In this document: positions 46,711 to 63,122 of the stretch, piece by piece
How positions within the stretch are numbered: position 1 is the stretch's first letter
Layout of the letters: every line of letters begins with the position of its first letter
Assembly (NCBI GenBank): GCA_019232905.1
Contig: JAFANA010000097.1
Location: 1-64,000, forward strand
From: Vulcanimicrobiota bacterium
GTDB taxonomy: Bacteria > Vulcanimicrobiota > Vulcanimicrobiia > Vulcanimicrobiales > Vulcanimicrobiaceae
DNA: 64,000 nucleotides
Direction of reading: 5' to 3'
Made by a program: the position numbers and the translations under genes
The notes under the pieces: generated by a model
What the model was told of the DNA's origin: nothing
What the model saw: the letters and a program-made list of their open reading frames with translations, nothing else
The model's database searches: none

Positions 46711-47424
46711 ATGACGACGGCGGACTTTGTCGTTCGTGTGCTCCTTGCGCTCGCGCTCGGCATCCTCATCGGCGTCGAACGGCAGTGGCGCCAACGCGGG
46801 GCGGGGCTGCGAACGAACGCGCTGGTATCGCTCGGCGCCGCCCTCTTTTCGTCACTCTCGATTCTGCTCGACGGCGGCAATCCGACGCAAATCGCCGCCT
46901 ACATCGTCTCCGGAACCGGTTTTCTCGCCGGCGCCGTCATCTTCAAAGAGAACTTCAGCGTACGCGGACTCAACACGGCCGCGACGCTTTGGGCAACGGC
47001 TGCAGTCGGTACGCTGGTTGGTTCCGGCTTCTATCTCGATGCAACGATCGGCGCCGTTGCGATTCTCGCAACGAACATCGTGTTGCGTCCGATCGTGCAG
47101 CGCATCAACCGCCAGCCGTTCGAACAGACGGAGTTGAGCCGTGAATTCGTTATTCGCGTCACGTGCGACGCCAGTAAAGAATCGAGCGTGCGTGCGCTGC
47201 TGCTCGCGCGTATCCGCGAGACACCGCAGGTCGTTTTGCGGGCCATAGAGAGCCGGAATCTCGATGAGGGCGAGGTTGAAGTCGTTGCGACCGTTGTCGC
47301 TGCCGCGCATGCCGAACTCGATTTGGAGCGCATCGTCGGGCGCATGAGTTTGGAGCGCGCGATCCTCGCAGCCAGTTGGCGCGCCGGCGAATTGACGAGT
47401 TCGCAAGACGAAAGCGAGGAATAA
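46711..47424 (+). CDS. MgtC/SapB-family membrane protein
   Basis: This 237-aa protein has the MgtC signature: VLLALALGILIGVERQWRQRGAGLRTNALVSLGAALFSSLS, followed by IAAYIVSGTGFLAGAVIFKENFSVRGLNTAATLWATAAVG, about five helices, and a cytosolic ACT-like C-terminal domain (FVIRVTCDASKESSVRALLL). MgtC proteins support growth at low Mg2+. It lies just upstream of the M-box riboswitch, so the whole neighbourhood looks dedicated to magnesium. Confidence 0.88.
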   Translation: MTTADFVVRVLLALALGILIGVERQWRQRGAGLRTNALVSLGAALFSSLSILLDGGNPTQIAAYIVSGTGFLAGAVIFKENFSVRGLNTAATLWATAAVGTLVGSGFYLDATIGAVAILATNIVLRPIVQRINRQPFEQTELSREFVIRVTCDASKESSVRALLLARIRETPQVVLRAIESRNLDEGEVEVVATVVAAAHAELDLERIVGRMSLERAILAASWRAGELTSSQDESEE

Positions 47425-47439
47425 GGCTTGACTCAACGC

Positions 47440-47645
47440 GTATGATGAATGTGGATTCCTCGTTAGGTGAGGCGTCTGCACGAGAACAAGCCGCTGCCCG
47501 GAAAGGTCGAGAGACCCCAATGGGTTACCAGGCACCGTCGAATCAAGGCGGTACCTAACGCGGCTGACCGGAGCAACCGGTCTACGGCGTGCAGTGCTAA
47601 AACTCGACGTTGAGGGGAACTCCGGGCCGCTAAGGCCTCGGAAGT
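47440..47645 (+). promoter_or_regulatory. M-box (ykoK-leader) Mg2+ riboswitch
   Basis: The conserved M-box segments appear in order: CGTTAGGTGAGGC at 47461-47473, CTGCCC at 47494-47499, CCCCAATGGGTTACCAGG at 47515-47532, ACCTAACG at 47553-47560 (pairing with CGTTAGGT), and CAGTGCTAAAACTC at 47592-47605. M-boxes fold when Mg2+ is plentiful and stop transcription. A terminator with a T-run stands 8 bases downstream. The first gene downstream is an Nramp-family transporter. Confidence 0.88.
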
Positions 47646-47652
47646 CTTATCG

Positions 47653-47687
47653 ACTGTCGCGCGCGAGGAGCCGTGACAGTTTTTTTA
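47653..47687 (+). terminator. Terminator of the M-box expression platform
   Basis: ACTGTC (47653-47658) pairs with GACAGT (47675-47680), followed by seven or more T's. It matches a riboswitch terminator that forms when Mg2+ is bound. Confidence 0.75.
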
Positions 47688-47702
47688 TTTGTGCATTTGG
47701 GG

Positions 47703-47884
47703 GCCCCGCCGTAGCGGGGGGCGCGCAGCTGCGATAGCAGCGGAGTGCCTTTCAAACAAACGGGGTCCCCAAAGTGCGAAGCACTTTGGGGGAGCCCCGC
47801 CATAGCGGGGGGCGCGCAGCTGCGATAGCAGCGGAGTGCCTTTCAAACAAACGGGGTCCCCAAAGTGCGAAGCACTTTGGGGGA
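47703..47884. repeat. Two tandem copies of a 91-bp REP-like palindromic repeat
   Basis: Units 47703-47793 and 47794-47884 are almost identical (one visible difference, G/A at 47711/47802). Each contains three hairpins: GCCCCGCC/GGCGGGGC-like, GCTGCGATAGCAGC, and CCCCAAAGTGC-GAA-GCACTTTGGGG (47767-47791 and 47858-47882, perfect 11-bp stems). The GCGAAGC apex is a known very stable mini-hairpin. Related sequence recurs inside the tRNA-Leu intron at 40051-40078. Confidence 0.9.
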
Positions 47885-47972
47885 GAGGGGGTGATGAACG
47901 TGGACGATGGTCCGAGTCGATTATGCAAGCCGGTTTTAACAAGCCGTGATTTGACTGCGCCCGTCCATAGGG
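47884..47972 (+). promoter_or_regulatory. Candidate structured leader RNA, copy 1 (upstream of Nramp 1)
   Basis: Shares blocks TGGACGATGG, CCGAGTCGA, ATGCA, GCCGG, AAGCCGT and GCGCCCGT with copy 2 at 49471-49572. The closing stem is 47900-47906 (GTGGACG) with 47962-47968 (CGTCCAT). The inner hairpin is CGGTTT at 47931-47936 with AAGCCG at 47941-47946. It does not match any riboswitch class I know. Confidence 0.6.
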
Positions 47973-48007
47973 TGCGATATCACTAGAATCCACTGGGGTA
48001 CTGTGCC

Positions 48008-48139
48008 ATGAACAAAATGCTGGCATTCTTCTTTCGCCGTCCGAACGAGACGGCTCACGATGACACCTTGCGTGCCGGAGCGGACGTCCGCCACGGCTGC
48101 GTAAGCCCGTACATCGCCATGCTGCCGCGAGTCGACTAG
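48008..48139 (+). CDS. Possible 43-aa leader peptide before Nramp 1
   Basis: ATG 48008 opens a 43-codon frame (MNKMLAFFFRRPNETAHDD at the start) ending in TAG at 48137-48139, a single base before the Nramp ATG. GGGG at 47995-47998 is a weak ribosome-binding site. There is no export signal or known domain. The tight coupling to the transporter gene suggests a translated upstream frame that controls it, but it could be chance. No comparable frame precedes Nramp 2. Confidence 0.45.
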   Translation: MNKMLAFFFRRPNETAHDDTLRAGADVRHGCVSPYIAMLPRVD

Positions 48140-48140
48140 T

Positions 48141-49454
48141 ATGGCCGCCACGCGCGCACTTCCGCAAATCCCAATCTGGCGCCGCATCGCAATCTTTCTC
48201 TCAATTGTGGGCCCGGGCATCATCACTGCGAACGCCGACAACGACGTCGGCGGTGTATTGACCTATTCGCAGGCAGGTGCTCAATTCGGATACGGGCTTC
48301 TGTGGCTCTTGGTTCCCGTTACGATCGCGTTGATCGTAACGCAAGAGATGTGCGCGCGCATGGGCGCAGTTACGGGAAAGGGCCTCGCCGATCTCATTCG
48401 TGAGAACTTCGGCGTTAAAGTGACCTTTTGGGTCTTGGTTCTCTTCGTAATTTGCGACCTCGGAAATACGGCAACCGAGTTTGCCGGCGTTGCATCGGTC
48501 GCGCCGATTTTTGCCGGCTTCGGTCATCTCAATCCCGGCTTAGTCAAAGTCGCCATGGTCGCAGGCGCCGCGGCGTTCGTCTACATCATGGTGACGAAGG
48601 GAAACTATAAGGTCGTCGAGCGCGTCTTTTTCGTGTTCTGTTCGATCTACCTGACGTACGTGGTCAGCGCGATACTCGTCCATCCGAATTGGAAGGACGT
48701 CGTCTACCAGACGATTTTCCCGCACTTCTCGGCGTCGAAAGCCTATCTGTTAATGATCATCGCGGTCATCGGAACGACGATCTCGCCGTGGATGCAGTTC
48801 TACATTCAGGCGGCGGTCGTCGATAAAGGCGTTCGCGAAGAGAACTATGCGGATTCACGGATCGACGTCGTAACGGGCGCGCTGATCACCGATATCATTG
48901 CGTTCTTTATCATCGTATCGTGCGCGGCGACGATTTTCATCCACAATTTGCACGTGCCCGCCGCACATCAGATTCAGGTGAACGATGCGAGCGATGTTGC
49001 GGTTGCATTGCAGCCGCTTGCCGGGAAATTCGCCTCGCTGCTCTTTGCGCTCGGGCTGCTCAACGCCGCAATCTTCACGGCTTCGATTCTCCCGCTCTCG
49101 ACCGCATATTACGTCTGTGAAGCGTTCGGCTTCGAGCGGGGCGTGGATCATCGCTTCACGGATGCTCCGATCTTCTACACGCTCTATCTGTCGCTGATCG
49201 TGATCGGAGCCGGCGTCGTCATCATTCCGAATGCGCCGCTGCTCGCGATCATTTTCTACTCGCAGGTGCTCAACGGTGTCTTGCTTCCCGTAGTCCTGGT
49301 CTTGATGCTCTTGCTGATCAATAATCCGCGCATCATGGGCACCTGGACGAACGGAAGTGTCTTCAACGCGATCGCCTGGATCACAGTCGTCGTCGTCGCG
49401 CTGCTCACAGGCATCTCGACGATCCAATTAATCTTCCCATCACTGGGAAGCTAA
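48141..49454 (+). CDS. Nramp-family divalent-metal transporter 1 (divergent, probable Mg2+ type)
   Basis: This 437-aa protein has 11 membrane helices. Helix 1 reads SIVGPGIITANADNDVGG instead of the canonical DPGN motif, and helix 6 reads VIGTTISPWMQFYIQ where classical Nramps have a metal-binding Met followed by Pro-His. The Asp of helix 1 is kept. Loss of the thioether ligand is known from Nramp branches that transport harder ions such as Mg2+. Together with an M-box riboswitch and an MgtC gene upstream, Mg2+ import is the best inference. Mn2+ or another metal is not excluded. Confidence 0.87.
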   Translation: MAATRALPQIPIWRRIAIFLSIVGPGIITANADNDVGGVLTYSQAGAQFGYGLLWLLVPVTIALIVTQEMCARMGAVTGKGLADLIRENFGVKVTFWVLVLFVICDLGNTATEFAGVASVAPIFAGFGHLNPGLVKVAMVAGAAAFVYIMVTKGNYKVVERVFFVFCSIYLTYVVSAILVHPNWKDVVYQTIFPHFSASKAYLLMIIAVIGTTISPWMQFYIQAAVVDKGVREENYADSRIDVVTGALITDIIAFFIIVSCAATIFIHNLHVPAAHQIQVNDASDVAVALQPLAGKFASLLFALGLLNAAIFTASILPLSTAYYVCEAFGFERGVDHRFTDAPIFYTLYLSLIVIGAGVVIIPNAPLLAIIFYSQVLNGVLLPVVLVLMLLLINNPRIMGTWTNGSVFNAIAWITVVVVALLTGISTIQLIFPSLGS

Positions 49455-49470
49455 ACCTGAACGTTATTTA

Positions 49471-49572
49471 GAGAGAGGAGGTGAGGAGTCCGCATGGACG
49501 ATGGGCCGAGTCGAATTGACGATGCAGCCGGCTTAGATAAGCCGTTCCTTCAACGCGCCCGTTTGTGCGGCG
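49471..49572 (+). promoter_or_regulatory. Candidate structured leader RNA, copy 2 (upstream of Nramp 2)
   Basis: Second copy of the motif at 47884-47972. The closing stem is 49490-49500 (CCGCATGGACG) with 49560-49570 (CGTTTGTGCGG), 11 bp including wobbles. The inner hairpin is CGGCTT at 49529-49534 with AAGCCG at 49539-49544 (a perfect 6-bp stem; copy 1 has T-G at one position). Differences between copies mostly keep pairing. Confidence 0.6.
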
Positions 49573-49607
49573 CAATTACGCATTTGTTTTAGGAGTTTTT
49601 ATCTGCC

Positions 49608-51230
49608 ATGATTCGGGCGGAACAACGGATGACCGCGCGTCTCGACGCCATGCACACGGGCGATATTCGAGGCGCACTCGGAACGATCAAGAGCGGTGAT
49701 ATCGCGCCGCGCAAAGGACTGTGGGCGAAGCTCGTCACGTTTCTTGCTATTCTCGGACCCGGCCTCATCGTGATGGTCGGCGACAACGACGCCGGCGCGT
49801 TCGGAACGTATACGCAAGCCGGCCAAAACTACGGAACGTCGCTGCTGTGGACGATGCTGCTGCTCGTTCCGGTGCTCTACATCAACCAAGAAATGGTCTT
49901 GCGGCTCGGTGCCGTGAGCGGCGTCGGGCACGCTCGGCTCATTCTCGAGCGCTTCGGGAAATTCTGGGGCGCATTCAGCGTCATCGATCTCTTCATTCTC
50001 AACGCGCTTACGATCGTCACGGAATTTATCGGCGTGAGTCTTGCTGCGGACTTCTTCGGAATTCCGAAATTGCTCGGGGTCGCCGTTGCCGCGGCGCTCG
50101 TGATGTTCGCCGTGACGACGGGAAGTTTTCGCCGTTTCGAACGCTTCGCGATTGTTCTCTGCATCGGCAGTTTGTTGCTCGTTCCGGTCTTGATCGCAGT
50201 GCATGCGCCCGTCGGTCAGAGCGTGCATGATTTCTTCATTCCGAATCTTCCGAAGGGCGACTTGAGCGTCATCATGCTGCTCATCATCGGAATCGTCGGG
50301 ACGACCGTTGCTCCGTGGCAGCTTTTCTTTCATCAAAGCTACGTGATCGACAAGCGCATTACGCCGCGTTTTATCCGCTACGAGCGCTGGGATCTCGTCG
50401 TCGGCATCGCGTTCGTCTTGATCGGTGCGATTGCCATGATTTCGTTCGCTGCCGCCACGTTCGCCGGGCATCCGGAATTCGGAAATTTCGCCGACGCCGG
50501 TCAAGTCGCAGCGGGAATTGCAAAATACGTCGGACACGTTCCGGCAACGCTCTTCGCGATTGCATTGGTCGATGCGTCGATCATCGGTGCTGCTGCAGTC
50601 GGTCTCTCGACCGCCTATGCCATCGGCGATGTCATGTCATACCGTCACTCGCTACACCGCGGCGTGGCCGACGCGCCCCAATTCTATGCGGTCTACTTCG
50701 GCCTGATCGCCGTCGCCGCGGCAATCGTGCTCATTCCCGGAAGCCCGCTCGGGCTTTTGACGAACGCCGTGCAAGTGCTCGCCGGCGTGTTGCTGCCCAG
50801 CGCTACGGTGTTTCTACTTTTACTTTCGAACGATCGCGCGGTGCTCGGTCCCTGGGCAAACGGCCGTTGGGTCAATGCCGCGACGGCGCTCGTGATCGGC
50901 GCGCTCGTGATGCTGTCGGTTATCCTGACCGCCTCGGTTCTCTTCCCGTCCTTCGGAACCACGCAGATCGTGTGGACGCTTGCGCTCGGCTCCCTTGCCG
51001 CCGTGGCAGCAGCGGTAGGAAGCGCTATCATGCATCGTGATCCGGAAGAACCAGTCGACCGCGCAACGAAGCTCGCGTGGCAGATGCCGCCGCTTGACGA
51101 GTTACCGAAAGCGTTCCTAACGCCCCTTAATCGTCTCTGGCTCATCGTGTTGCGGTTGTATCTGATCGGCGCGGTTGCGCTCGTCGTTATTCGCGTCACA
51201 CAAATCGCACTTCGACACGGATCGCTCTAA
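49608..51230 (+). CDS. Nramp-family divalent-metal transporter 2 (divergent)
   Basis: This 540-aa protein has a ~35-residue soluble N-terminal extension, then LGPGLIVMVGDNDAGAFGTY in helix 1 and GIVGTTVAPWQLFFHQSYV in helix 6, again without DPGN and with Ala in place of the metal-binding Met. A C-terminal extension adds a cytosolic segment (HRDPEEPVDRATKLAWQMPPL) and one more helix. TTTTAGGAG precedes ATG 49608. It is followed 14 bp later by an outer-membrane barrel gene, so the pair may move metal across both membranes. Confidence 0.87.
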   Translation: MIRAEQRMTARLDAMHTGDIRGALGTIKSGDIAPRKGLWAKLVTFLAILGPGLIVMVGDNDAGAFGTYTQAGQNYGTSLLWTMLLLVPVLYINQEMVLRLGAVSGVGHARLILERFGKFWGAFSVIDLFILNALTIVTEFIGVSLAADFFGIPKLLGVAVAAALVMFAVTTGSFRRFERFAIVLCIGSLLLVPVLIAVHAPVGQSVHDFFIPNLPKGDLSVIMLLIIGIVGTTVAPWQLFFHQSYVIDKRITPRFIRYERWDLVVGIAFVLIGAIAMISFAAATFAGHPEFGNFADAGQVAAGIAKYVGHVPATLFAIALVDASIIGAAAVGLSTAYAIGDVMSYRHSLHRGVADAPQFYAVYFGLIAVAAAIVLIPGSPLGLLTNAVQVLAGVLLPSATVFLLLLSNDRAVLGPWANGRWVNAATALVIGALVMLSVILTASVLFPSFGTTQIVWTLALGSLAAVAAAVGSAIMHRDPEEPVDRATKLAWQMPPLDELPKAFLTPLNRLWLIVLRLYLIGAVALVVIRVTQIALRHGSL

Positions 51231-51244
51231 GAAGAAGAAGACGA

Positions 51245-53128
51245 ATGCGAAAAATCTTCTTATACGGCGCGGCGGCATCGCTTGCGTTCATACTTCTGTG
51301 CGCGGCCGCTCAAGCGGATCAATCGCCGTCACCGAGCGCATCGCCGTCTCCGAGTCCAACGCCGGGCTTCTCGACGTCGGTTTCCGGATCGAACGTCTTC
51401 ATCGATCAAGCCGCCAGCGGGCCTGGAATCACGCCGCCTGAGGCGGCCGATTTTCAGGCGGGTCTTCCGAACTCTCCGATGTCGCCATACGATTGGTTTT
51501 CCAGCGCCCCGACCATACCCGGCATCTCGGGCGTCGCGCAATGGTTGCTGACCGCAACGGAACGTACACCCGGCGTGACCGCGCAAGCTACGTTTGGTTT
51601 TGACGGTTTCGTCGGCGACGGAACAAACGCCGCGTTTTGGGCCGAACCGCTGCTGGGCAACGCGAGTCCGCATTGGAATCATCTCTATAACCCCGGCATC
51701 GTCTTTCCGACGCAGCCGGGGAAGAACGACTTCATCGGTGCGCAACTATCGGTGCCCGTTTCAGCATCGCTTGCCGATAACGGCGGAAACTGGCAGATTC
51801 GGGGCGGATATTTCGATCTTGCGCAAACGGATCGTTTCGTGTTTGCGCCGCCACCCGTGCCAAATGTGCTGACTTTGCCGACGATTACCACCGCCGAAAC
51901 GTTCGGACCCGGCGCACCGAACCTGAACGCGTGGACTCCGGCGTCGGCCAACATGCAGTTGCTGGGCGCGGATGCGCAAGTAAAAATCCGCTCGGCATCG
52001 ATCGAACTAACGGACGCATTGTTACCTGCGCTCGGCGGCACCGGCGTCCGTATGCTCAACGGATCGATCGTCGTCGATCGCGGTGATTACGGGCGTTTCT
52101 CGGCGCAGGTGTCGCACATCGACACGAGCGGCGATCCAATCAGCACGACAACCTTTTTCGGAGTCAACCAAACGTTGTATCCGGGTCCGCAAGGCCGGCT
52201 CTTTGCGAGCACCCTGGCAGATCAGCATCAAACGCTTGCGGGTGTCCGCGCATTCTTCCATCCGTTCAGCGGCTACGACACGTTGTTCGAACTCGGGCGC
52301 GGCTGGTACAATGCGGGCCTTGTTGCCGAACCCGGGACGAATGCTCCAGGGAACTATCAGCACTATGCGCTGACGCGGCACTTCAATACGGAATCCGATG
52401 TTACGGTCGAGTACTACCGCTTCGATCCCCGATACGCCACGGTAATTTTACCGTACGGCGTTCCGGAAAATATCTGGGCCGTTGCATGGTCGTGGCCGGG
52501 ACAGTGGTTGAAATCGAACTATCAATCCATCGATAACACAATCATCGGTATCAACCGTGCCGGATATCGCGTGCATGTCGATGTCACGCACGGTCGTCTG
52601 GAAGTCCACGCCGCCGGCTACGTCTGGCGGCAACTCGAACCGATCACGCTCGCGCAGGGGTCGCAAGAAGGCTGGGTCGACGGCTATTTCCTTCCGCAGT
52701 TCAATGGACAAGGCACCCAGGGCTGGCAGCGGCAAGCGGGCATTTTTGCCGCTTGGCATTTCTTGCGTGACGATGTCATCGCGGATACCGTTTGGGATCG
52801 CTCGTACCGTCCGGTCAACAACGACCCGGTAGATCTGGTCAGCATGAACTATCCGCAAATCGTGTTCTCGCTCCAGCATCATTGGAACAAGAAGGCGCTC
52901 GGCATTGTTTCCTATGGGCGATACTCCGCCAACGGGATGTGGTCGACGACCCCGGTGCAAGGCATCTACGGCGTCGGGATGCTCGGAGGCGAATGGGACT
53001 TCGGGAAGCAGCAGCTTCTGGTGGCTTTACGCCACGCGGGACTCGTCGGGTTGCCGTCCATCCCTGACGGACCGCCACCGACGCTTCGCGGGACGACCTT
53101 GGTGGTGAACGAGCAGTTCTCGCTCTAA
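51245..53128 (+). CDS. Outer-membrane beta-barrel protein linked to Nramp 2
   Basis: This 627-aa protein has a signal peptide (AAASLAFILLCAAAQA) and an SPSPSASPSPSP linker, then many amphipathic strands with aromatic girdles (WQIRGGYFDLA, VTVEYYRFDPRY, VHVDVTHGRLEVHAAGYVW, GVGMLGGEWDF), ending LVVNEQFSL. This fits a large porin of ~16 or more strands; I do not recognise the family. Operon position behind an Nramp suggests a role in metal entry through the outer membrane, which is inference only. Confidence 0.72.
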   Translation: MRKIFLYGAAASLAFILLCAAAQADQSPSPSASPSPSPTPGFSTSVSGSNVFIDQAASGPGITPPEAADFQAGLPNSPMSPYDWFSSAPTIPGISGVAQWLLTATERTPGVTAQATFGFDGFVGDGTNAAFWAEPLLGNASPHWNHLYNPGIVFPTQPGKNDFIGAQLSVPVSASLADNGGNWQIRGGYFDLAQTDRFVFAPPPVPNVLTLPTITTAETFGPGAPNLNAWTPASANMQLLGADAQVKIRSASIELTDALLPALGGTGVRMLNGSIVVDRGDYGRFSAQVSHIDTSGDPISTTTFFGVNQTLYPGPQGRLFASTLADQHQTLAGVRAFFHPFSGYDTLFELGRGWYNAGLVAEPGTNAPGNYQHYALTRHFNTESDVTVEYYRFDPRYATVILPYGVPENIWAVAWSWPGQWLKSNYQSIDNTIIGINRAGYRVHVDVTHGRLEVHAAGYVWRQLEPITLAQGSQEGWVDGYFLPQFNGQGTQGWQRQAGIFAAWHFLRDDVIADTVWDRSYRPVNNDPVDLVSMNYPQIVFSLQHHWNKKALGIVSYGRYSANGMWSTTPVQGIYGVGMLGGEWDFGKQQLLVALRHAGLVGLPSIPDGPPPTLRGTTLVVNEQFSL

Positions 53129-61332: not shown

Positions 61333-61871
61333 TGCCGGGCGCTCCGGATATCGGATGCAAGCGTGGTCACGCTTTCATCTTGATCCGCGATTCCGCGCTC
61401 CCGCCCGTTTGCATCGATGAACGTAACGATCGAAATGTGCGCTTCGTCGTAATCGTAATTGCCGTGTTTGCCCGGGATTTTCTGCGCCCAAATGTGATAC
61501 GCGCGTTCGACGCTTGCGATTTGCTTCGGGCTTCCGGTCAGTCCGATAATGGGCGCACCGGAAAACCGTTGCGCGAATGCGTCGAGCACCGGCGGCGTGT
61601 CGCGCTGCGGATCGACGGTAACGAACGCGATCTCTGCGTTACCGTTCTCGCCGATTGCTTTCGCAAGCTTCGCGACCGTCGCCGGACAGGTATCCGGACA
61701 ATGCGTGAAGCCGAAATACAACGCAACGGCCTTCCCATGCTGCGCCGAGAGCGTCCACAACGCTCCGTGTTGATCGGTCAACGTGAAATCCGGCGCCGCG
61801 GGATAGCGCGAACAGCCCGCACCGCCGAGCAGTGCGAGCGCGACGGCCACCAATCCGAGAACGCGGCGCAT
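61329..61871 (-). CDS. SCO1/SenC-family lipoprotein
   Basis: This 180-aa lipoprotein has a lipobox (LLGGAGC) and a compact Sco domain with the standard copper motif YFGFTHCPDTCPATVA (C-X3-C) and a His in the region EAHISIVTFIDANGRE. It delivers copper to the CuA site of cytochrome c oxidase. ATG 61871 is taken because it directly precedes the signal peptide. It sits 21 bp after the Nramp 3 stop, in the same direction, and is translationally coupled to the second Sco gene. Confidence 0.9.
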   Translation of the reverse strand: MRRVLGLVAVALALLGGAGCSRYPAAPDFTLTDQHGALWTLSAQHGKAVALYFGFTHCPDTCPATVAKLAKAIGENGNAEIAFVTVDPQRDTPPVLDAFAQRFSGAPIIGLTGSPKQIASVERAYHIWAQKIPGKHGNYDYDEAHISIVTFIDANGRERGIADQDESVTTLASDIRSARQ

Positions 61872-61892
61872 AGGTGTAGTGTACCGCACCGT

Positions 61893-63122
61893 TCACGCAC
61901 CAGGATGGAGAATCGTCGTAATCGCCATATAGACGCCCAGGACGATGCAAGCGCCGGAGAGTACGTACGTCACCGCGTTGCCGAGCGGGCGGTTTCCGCG
62001 GTTCCCGATCACGCGGCGGTCGTTCACGAGGACGAGCAAAAAGCCCAGCACAATGGGCAGCACGAATCCGTTGAACGCTTCCACGTAGACGGTGATTTGA
62101 ATGAGCGGGAGGTTCGGAATCAGCACGACGGCGGCGGCGAGTGCGACGCACCCGGCATAGAGCCCGGTAAACCGTTTGCTGCGCAGATCGTCGTTCAGTG
62201 AAGCACGCCATTCGAACGCTTCGCCGAATGCCCACGCCGTCGCGAGCGCGACGACGAATGCGCCGAGCATCGACGCTCCGATGAGCGCGATACCGAACGT
62301 TACACCGGCGAACCGTCCCACGAGCGGCTCGAATGCGAGCGCCGCATGTGCTGCGTCGCTCACCGGAATGTGCCGGACGAACAAGGTGGCAGCCGTCGTG
62401 ATGACGACCGCGCACATAATGGCTTGCGTGACGATCGAGCCGAGCAGCGTGTCGATACGTGCAAAGGTCAAATCGGAGAGTTTGAGCCCTTTGTCGACCG
62501 TCGCGCTTTGTTGGTAGAAGATCATCCACGGCATGATGACCGCGCCGATGTTGGAGGCGATCAGGAGCACGTAGTTGGGATCGTGGAGCGGCTGCGAACC
62601 GAAGATGCCTTCGGCGAGAATCGCGTGCGCCGTCGGATGCGCGGCAAATGCGGCTGGAATGAAGAGCAGTTCGACGAGGCACAGCGCTAATGCAAACACT
62701 TCGGCGCGTTTGTACGATGCGGTGAAAATTACGACGATAAGCAGCGCTGCAGCGGCTAGAACGAGCGGCACCGGATTGAGCCCGAAGATCAACGCCGCAC
62801 CGGCAATGCCGGCGAATTCCGTGATAAGCGCCGCGACGTTCGTTACCAGCATCGTGCCGAGCGAGACCCACGCCCAGCCGAGTCCGTAATGCTCGCGGAT
62901 CAAGCGCGCGTGCCCTTTGCCGGTGACCATGCCGAGGCGCACCGTCATCTCTTGCACGATGTAGAGCGGCACGATCAAGAGCAGCTGCAGTAAGACCAAT
63001 TTGTAGCCGTACTGCGCACCGGAGGTTGCGGCAGTTGTAATACTGCCGGCTTCGGTGTCGGCGAACGTTACGACGAGTCCAGGTCCGGCTACGGCGAGGA
63101 ATCGCAGAATCCAGCGAGACAT
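61893..63122 (-). CDS. Nramp-family divalent-metal transporter 3
   Basis: This 409-aa protein has 11 helices, with AGPGLVVTFADTEAGSIT in helix 1 and ASNIGAVIMPWMIFYQQSATVDKG in helix 6. Unlike the other two Nramps it keeps the metal-binding Met (IMPW), though DPGN is again absent. A 14-bp DtxR-like palindrome lies just before the ATG. This combination suggests Mn2+ or Fe2+ uptake repressed by a DtxR/MntR protein, such as the one at 13003-13671. It leads the leftward run containing two Sco genes. Confidence 0.88.
   Translation of the reverse strand: MSRWILRFLAVAGPGLVVTFADTEAGSITTAATSGAQYGYKLVLLQLLLIVPLYIVQEMTVRLGMVTGKGHARLIREHYGLGWAWVSLGTMLVTNVAALITEFAGIAGAALIFGLNPVPLVLAAAALLIVVIFTASYKRAEVFALALCLVELLFIPAAFAAHPTAHAILAEGIFGSQPLHDPNYVLLIASNIGAVIMPWMIFYQQSATVDKGLKLSDLTFARIDTLLGSIVTQAIMCAVVITTAATLFVRHIPVSDAAHAALAFEPLVGRFAGVTFGIALIGASMLGAFVVALATAWAFGEAFEWRASLNDDLRSKRFTGLYAGCVALAAAVVLIPNLPLIQITVYVEAFNGFVLPIVLGFLLVLVNDRRVIGNRGNRPLGNAVTYVLSGACIVLGVYMAITTILHPGA

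Follow-up and report, generated by a model that had tools for sequence, protein, structure and literature searches.

Short leader ORFs duplicated downstream of an M-box riboswitch and upstream of two NRMT-like Nramp genes: candidate Mg2+ leader peptides in three bacterial phyla

Mg2+ leader peptides, the control of NRMT genes by M-box riboswitches, and one M-box-associated upstream ORF (uORF) are already known. In Salmonella, the 8-aa ORF mgtQ is located between mgtC and mgtB (PMC8092293), and the enterobacterial Mg2+ transporter genes mgtA and corA have leader ORFs (MgtL and CorL) with early acidic and proline residues (PMC11552253). The mycobacterial M-box uORF2 encodes the peptide Rv1805A, which was called mycobacteria-specific, and the role of which was left open by its discoverers (PMC12810186).

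The locus described here belongs to a window of 64,000 nucleotides, i.e., the whole stretch of DNA that was analysed (contig JAFANA010000097.1, assembly GCA_019232905.1). Two copies of a leader with a common core are found in it, at 47883-47986 and 49474-49592. An earlier sequence-only reading had reported blocks shared by both leaders at corresponding places and in the same order, and the alignment bears this out: the local alignment of the two copies scores 55, against 28 for the best of 2,000 shuffles. The core in its 20-base form occurs at these two sites only. TGGACGATGGNCCGAGTCGA is present in the window at 47901 and 49495 exclusively (0.02 matches expected by chance), and a search of the 3.29 Mb assembly tolerating as many as three mismatches detected no further copy of it. 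The same reading called for an Rfam scan of both segments and a search for more copies in related genomes. The covariance-model search assigned neither copy to an Rfam family at the gathering score or at a plausible E-value, and at the homologous loci L033, L034, L036, L038, L041, L042, and L044 the M-box was the sole match, no other family being detected. More copies were found in related genomes, giving 41 Eremiobacterota sequences with copy 2 included. The description of a duplicated, conserved leader of metal-transport genes that lies outside Rfam, has homologues, and shows some covariation was correct. The proposed undescribed metal-responsive RNA is not supported: the conserved core consists of a ribosome-binding site and the first seven codons of a short ORF. 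Three features had been overlooked: the M-box at 47452-47621, the ORFs opening within the core, and another small ORF at 48008-48139.

The M-box (ykoK leader) Mg2+ riboswitch aptamer is encoded on the plus strand at 47452-47621, about 280 nt upstream of copy 1. It matches RF00380 over the full length of the model, with 131.2 bits (gathering cut-off, 44) and an E-value of 4e-31 in the whole-genome search. The metal-sensing RNA for copy 1 is evidently this known upstream M-box, a position in which copy 1 differs from mgtQ (PMC8092293). A hairpin that ends in a T run and resembles a terminator (ACTGTCG...CGTGACAGT-TTTTTTT; 47653-47687, plus strand) is the putative intrinsic terminator of the M-box, and a putative terminator of the same position and form follows many M-boxes in Eremiobacterota, whereas the mycobacterial M-box has a translational/Rho platform (PMC12810186). 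The region between the M-box and copy 1 (47700-47885) holds a G+C-rich inverted-repeat element of ~92 bp in two tandem copies that are 98% alike; diverged copies (73-87%) are found at six further sites of the genome. The gene immediately preceding the M-box (46711-47424) belongs to the MgtC family (PF02308 and MgtC_SapB_C), and the Mg2+ cluster may therefore extend upstream of the riboswitch.

Bioinformatics analysis of the genes downstream of the leaders revealed two Nramp-family genes on the plus strand. The first (48141-49454; PF01566 E-value, 1.4e-90) encodes an NRMT-like protein with DND replacing DPGN in TM1, and the second, nramp2 (49608-51230; PF01566 E-value, 7.4e-80), encodes an NRMT-like protein with a C-terminal extension. 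The nearest solved structure to the first product is 7qia (E-value, 1.2e-95; MntH, 2.9e-21), and the respective E-values for the second are 6e-54 and 3.7e-18. The search labels 7qia just as a "divalent metal cation transporter"; we take it to be the NRMT of Eggerthella lenta. The proteins are therefore nearer to NRMT than to the Mn/Fe Nramps, with DPGN replaced, and by closeness both genes would encode NRMT-type Mg2+ transporters. Given the M-box upstream and the genes for NRMT or MgtE downstream, Mg2+ is the most likely metal, and the leader element almost certainly belongs to Mg2+ transport. In the NrmT operons, M-boxes likewise precede genes for Nramp-related Mg2+ transporters, but targeted look-ups found no leader ORF described there (PMC4072509).

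The second small ORF (sORF2, MNKMLAFFFRRPNETAHDDTLRAGADVRHGCVSPYIAMLPRVD*; 48008-48139, plus strand) separates copy 1 from the first Nramp gene, and its product has no Pfam match. Similarly placed homologues of about 35-60 aa (e.g., in L077, L101, and L151) are found between the leader ORF and the NRMT gene at many uORF loci, and in many of them HDDTLRANQ is combined with a W-rich C-terminus (YWRSLV, FWILHAR). The window contains one more member of the Nramp family, its third, on the minus strand at 61791-63110, with 36% identity to nramp2. Downstream of nramp2, at 51245-53128, a secreted-looking protein of 627 aa without a Pfam match is encoded. Since a similar N-terminus (VFVGQQTGGPGTQPAEGPGFAAG) directly follows the M-box of L068, the sequence suggests a Mg2+-linked envelope protein.

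The common core of the leaders is composed of a Shine-Dalgarno sequence and GTG/ATG-GAC-GAT-GGN-CCG-AGT-CGA, i.e., (M/V)DDGPSR, with which a short ORF opens. In copy 1, the extended Shine-Dalgarno sequence GAGAGGGGGTGAT (47883-47895, plus strand) precedes an ORF of 28 codons with a GTG start (VDDGPSRLCKPVLTSRDLTAPVHRVRYH*; 47900-47986, plus strand), for which an in-frame ATG at 47894 is a possible alternative start. In copy 2, the extended Shine-Dalgarno sequence AGAGGAGGTGA (49474-49484, plus strand) is followed by an ORF of 32 codons (MDDGPSRIDDAAGLDKPFLQRARLCGAITHLF*; 49494-49592, plus strand), the TAG stop of which overlaps the AGGAG Shine-Dalgarno sequence of the second Nramp gene. Like the known Mg2+ leader peptides, each is thus encoded by a short ORF that precedes a Mg2+ transporter gene and has a ribosome-binding site of its own. 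The likeness to mgtQ extends to the AGGAGG-type site, the acidic codon at position 2, the stem-loops overlapping the ORF, and, for copy 2, the intergenic location; the window ORFs are longer, however, and share with mgtQ nothing but acidity at the sequence level (PMC8092293).

Homologues in Eremiobacterota, the phylum of the window, point to translation of these ORFs. A GGRGGTGA-like site is located upstream of the ORF in nearly all copies from this phylum, and in 33 of 37 loci the stop codon lies 4-29 nt upstream of the next start. For codons 2-8, the pN/pS ratio in close pairs is 0.43 in frame 0, and the other two frames give 1.23 and 0.96; as the sequences are related and hence not independent, these ratios and the conservation figures are descriptive. 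The start codon varies between A and G only (ATG/GTG). The third base of the Gly4 codon carries 0.18 bits of information and the first two 1.07 and 1.52 bits. Length variants differ by whole codons, one lineage having gained a codon (MDDDGS) and MDGSS having a codon fewer, and in Micrococcales D2 is replaced by E2, encoded by GAA. Because the constraint is confined to frame 0, the start varies by A/G only, and the indels are of whole codons, the leader ORF is, judging from these sequences, very probably translated. An ORF in the -1 frame was also considered and rejected: the spacing between the Shine-Dalgarno sequence and the core varies modulo 3, some of the upstream frames are closed, and pN/pS is 0.96.

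A 20-base pattern with three mismatches produced mostly chance matches within genes across the phylum, and homologues were therefore gathered by searching for Nramp genes and M-boxes; with 15 candidates scored per genome, a covariance model built from sequence alone (R1) lacked the power for whole-genome use. Of the 149 Eremiobacterota genomes, 96 contain M-box matches, about 120 in total, and the leader ORF follows 40 of the approximately 110 M-boxes whose downstream stretches were read. These 40 ORFs and copy 2 form the set of 41 sequences, in which the best-conserved residues are D2 (41/41), D3 or G3, G4, P5 or S5, S6, and S7/R7. The ORF is present at 24 of 43 NRMT M-box loci and at none of the 44 MgtE/PRC loci (p = 5e-10, uncorrected for relatedness); the other 19 NRMT loci downstream of M-boxes are without it. 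At 16 further M-box loci with the ORF, the next gene is of another type or not yet reached, and at several of these an NRMT gene follows about 2 kb downstream.

To cover other phyla, 84,980 species were scanned with GGRGGTGA-N9-RTGGACGRYGG. Apart from chance matches elsewhere, the pattern was found in Eremiobacterota and in seven species of Arthrobacter. In Micrococcales (the seven Arthrobacter and three more loci), the ORF starts with MDDG[P/N/H]SRS or MEDGHSRS, and the next gene is mgtE (checked by Pfam for L199; the others share the MIKxP start, as read by eye); no M-box was detected at the seven Arthrobacter loci scanned. M-boxes were found in 24 of 251 Chloroflexota genomes, and the ORFs downstream begin with MDAGPSSS, MDAGPSTSS, MDDDGSPH, MDSDSK, MEEGGSH, and similar sequences. 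Where recognisable, the next gene encodes NRMT, MgtE, a P-type ATPase, or an ABC-type permease, the last two being read by eye. In Actinomycetota, M-boxes are present in 27 of 346 genomes, and ORFs beginning with MSSSDSPGR, MSPDDSPYSR, MESDPGSR, MDSEPGS, or VPDDGEQPSR were found at 11 of 28 M-box loci. At three Actinomycetota and Chloroflexota loci (L264, L278, and L290), the M-box precedes a permease-like gene (ABC-type, by eye), an unexpected gene type. Under strict filters, no M-box was found in 247 genomes of Acidobacteriota, and this search was uninformative on the leader ORF.

Two of the Actinomycetota loci, L244 and L272, resemble the Rv1805A type: they precede ileS and a PPE gene, as do two of the mycobacterial M-box types, and the proline at position 7 of their ORFs agrees with the one published for Rv1805A (PMC12810186). 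The mycobacterial uORF2 and the window ORFs are alike in being short ORFs directly downstream of an M-box, with a conserved, proline-containing N-terminus and AGT serine codons, but the proline is at position 7 in the former (MSPDDSP) and at position 5 in the window type (PMC12810186). Based on the large shared stretch ATGGACGNNGGNCCNAGT, common descent of the ORFs of Eremiobacterota, Chloroflexota, and Micrococcales is likely. The ORFs downstream of Actinomycetota M-boxes are either homologues or look-alikes, originating by descent or by convergence.

The encoded N-termini are biased in composition. An acidic residue occupies one of positions 2-4 in 41/41 Eremiobacterota, 10/10 Micrococcales, 21/21 Chloroflexota (a set partly chosen by eye), and 8/11 other actinobacterial sequences. 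With short ORFs selected by a fixed rule, each of the 11 from actinobacteria had an acidic residue in positions 2-8 (long genes, 41%) and a proline in positions 2-10 (long genes, 9%). By the same approach, the mean number of acidic residues in positions 2-8 was 1.53 versus 0.83 in Eremiobacterota (p = 6e-7) and 1.5 versus 0.88 in Chloroflexota, where some unrelated ORFs are included. Early acidic and/or proline residues, as in Mg2+ leader peptides, are therefore present, and their content is modest: D2 is found always, D3 and P5 often, and lineages such as MDGGSS have one acidic residue and zero prolines. In this respect, the ORFs resemble MgtL and CorL, from which they differ in the peptide itself, the phyla, the absence of the mgtA/corA leader fold, and the coupling with an M-box riboswitch instead of PhoPQ (PMC11552253).

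Codon usage is also unusual. AGT accounts for 63%, 56%, 62%, and 82% of the early serine codons in the four sets, compared with 5-9% in long ORFs. A stop codon in the -1 frame within codons 4-9 was found in 33 of 40 Eremiobacterota ORFs (synonymous randomisation, 5.3 ± 2.0; ordinary genes, 8.5%), and such a stop at codons 4-8 together with the rare AGT is seen at most uORF loci, e.g., L077, L130, and Arthrobacter L175-L229. In Arthrobacter, residue 5 varies among P, N, and H while TAGTCGA is constant. The two copies of the window have no -1-frame stop at codons 5-7. Conservation of the AGT codon and of the -1-frame stop goes beyond what the peptide needs, with slow decoding, a frame check, or RNA contact as possible explanations.

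Within each ORF, two hairpins were predicted by consensus folding and covariation on the plus strand, H1 (47931-47946 and 49529-49544 in copies 1 and 2, respectively) and H2 (47956-47976 and 49555-49573). H1 is the inner hairpin of the sequence-only reading, which is present in both copies and backed by homologues. The closing stem of the same reading is absent from the consensus fold of 16 homologues, which comprises the two hairpins, and the long stem is peculiar to copy 2, where the Shine-Dalgarno region of the uORF pairs with the start of nramp2 (z-score, -2.95; 39-locus mean, -0.08). The mean z-score of H1/H2 in homologues is -1.35 (control region, -0.27), and two-sided changes affect 6 of 13 pairs in the 16-sequence alignment. 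The covariation score is 0.309 versus 0.236 ± 0.021 for shuffles (reached by 0 of 500), though relatedness may inflate this test, and slid alignments score at most 0.115. Taken in isolation, the two copies fold no better than shuffles (z-scores, -0.57 and +0.40), and some lineages have one hairpin only. The alignments support H1/H2 as secondary features inside the ORF. Long-range pairing that would hide the next ribosome-binding site, including sequestration of the next gene by an anti-Shine-Dalgarno sequence in the uORF body, gave no signal (mean z-score, +0.23). Competing RNA structures of the kind described for mgtQ (PMC8092293) were looked for in the window-type loci and not found.

Taken together, we give a probability of roughly 0.55 to the leader ORFs being regulatory leader peptides of the MgtL/MgtQ kind, which would add a translation-level Mg2+ check after the riboswitch. 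High Mg2+ makes an M-box terminate transcription, which is the established mechanism of these riboswitches. At low Mg2+, readthrough would allow the transcript to reach the leader ORF of copy 1, where the strong ribosome-binding site would load ribosomes and (M/V)DDGPSR would be made. The acidic/Pro/Gly/Ser N-terminus and the rare AGT codons could render early elongation fragile at low Mg2+, and over the first ~7 codons ribosomes would pause or drop off, as for MgtL and MgtQ; chances for such drop-off are about even, by analogy with those systems. H1/H2 would then remain folded and the next ribosome-binding site, just downstream of the uORF stop, would be free, switching the transporter on. 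With sufficient Mg2+, the ORF would be completed, H1/H2 melted, and the ribosome would end atop the next ribosome-binding site, lowering transporter synthesis. Copy 2 may exert the same check on nramp2 inside the operon, as mgtQ does on mgtB. The sequences directly support several parts of this scheme, namely the conservation of the reading frame, the ribosome-binding site, the position of the stop, the hairpins, and the Mg2+-transport context; the sign of control (on at low Mg2+) is inferred from MgtQ and MgtL/CorL. The on/off step of the model is hypothetical, as the folding analysis yielded no pairing able to mask the next ribosome-binding site.

The closeness of the uORF stop to the next start in most loci, and its overlap with the Shine-Dalgarno sequence in copy 2, would also fit an ORF that loads ribosomes, shields the transcript from Rho, and hands ribosomes on with no Mg2+ sensing of its own, and Rho-dependent termination is known at mycobacterial M-box leaders (PMC12810186). 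We consider such pure coupling unlikely, as it leaves the constrained MDxGPS/acidic N-terminus, the recurrence in three phyla, and the rare AGT codons unaccounted for. Still less probable is a small peptide acting in trans, e.g., by binding a Mg2+ transporter, as proposed for Rv1805A, which was suggested to be a transporter regulator and has a paralogue outside the M-box context (PMC12810186). The conserved N-terminus agrees with such a role, but conservation is limited to ~7 residues, beyond which the remainder ranges in length over 18-65 aa and even the frame differs (L040 versus L042), and the transporters encoded downstream (NRMT, MgtE, P-type ATPase) are unrelated. Finally, a structured metal-binding RNA, the undescribed riboswitch of the sequence-only reading, is very improbable despite the stability and covariation of H1/H2 and the conservation of AGT/CGA codons beyond peptide need: in place of a conserved ligand-binding core with covarying helices there are two short, variable hairpins (one in some lineages) with neither a conserved unpaired core nor a closing stem, conservation is highest where an ORF begins, and the homologues already lie downstream of a Mg2+ riboswitch.

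In the open-licence papers searched, we found no report of a conserved MDxGPSS-type ORF downstream of M-boxes in three phyla, of an M-box-free form before mgtE, or of a duplication within one operon. Under the leader-peptide reading, a presumed riboswitch becomes a testable leader-peptide system, and the M-box operons of three phyla carry a related short ORF, offering a candidate function for the mycobacterial Rv1805A peptide. A wider proposal, to which we assign slightly less than even odds, is that the M-box and a ribosome-sensing ORF act in series as a first and a second Mg2+ sensor, widespread in Eremiobacterota, Chloroflexota, and Actinomycetota, Rv1805A included. In this proposal, the ribosome itself would become a sensor through the initial residues of the ORF (MDxGPSS and acidic/Pro relatives, with rare AGT codons), and a single transcript would combine an RNA sensor with a ribosome sensor. 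If the ribosome-destabilisation model is true, M-box operons would measure Mg2+ two times, each time on a different physical principle, and the enterobacterial mechanism would extend to distant phyla.
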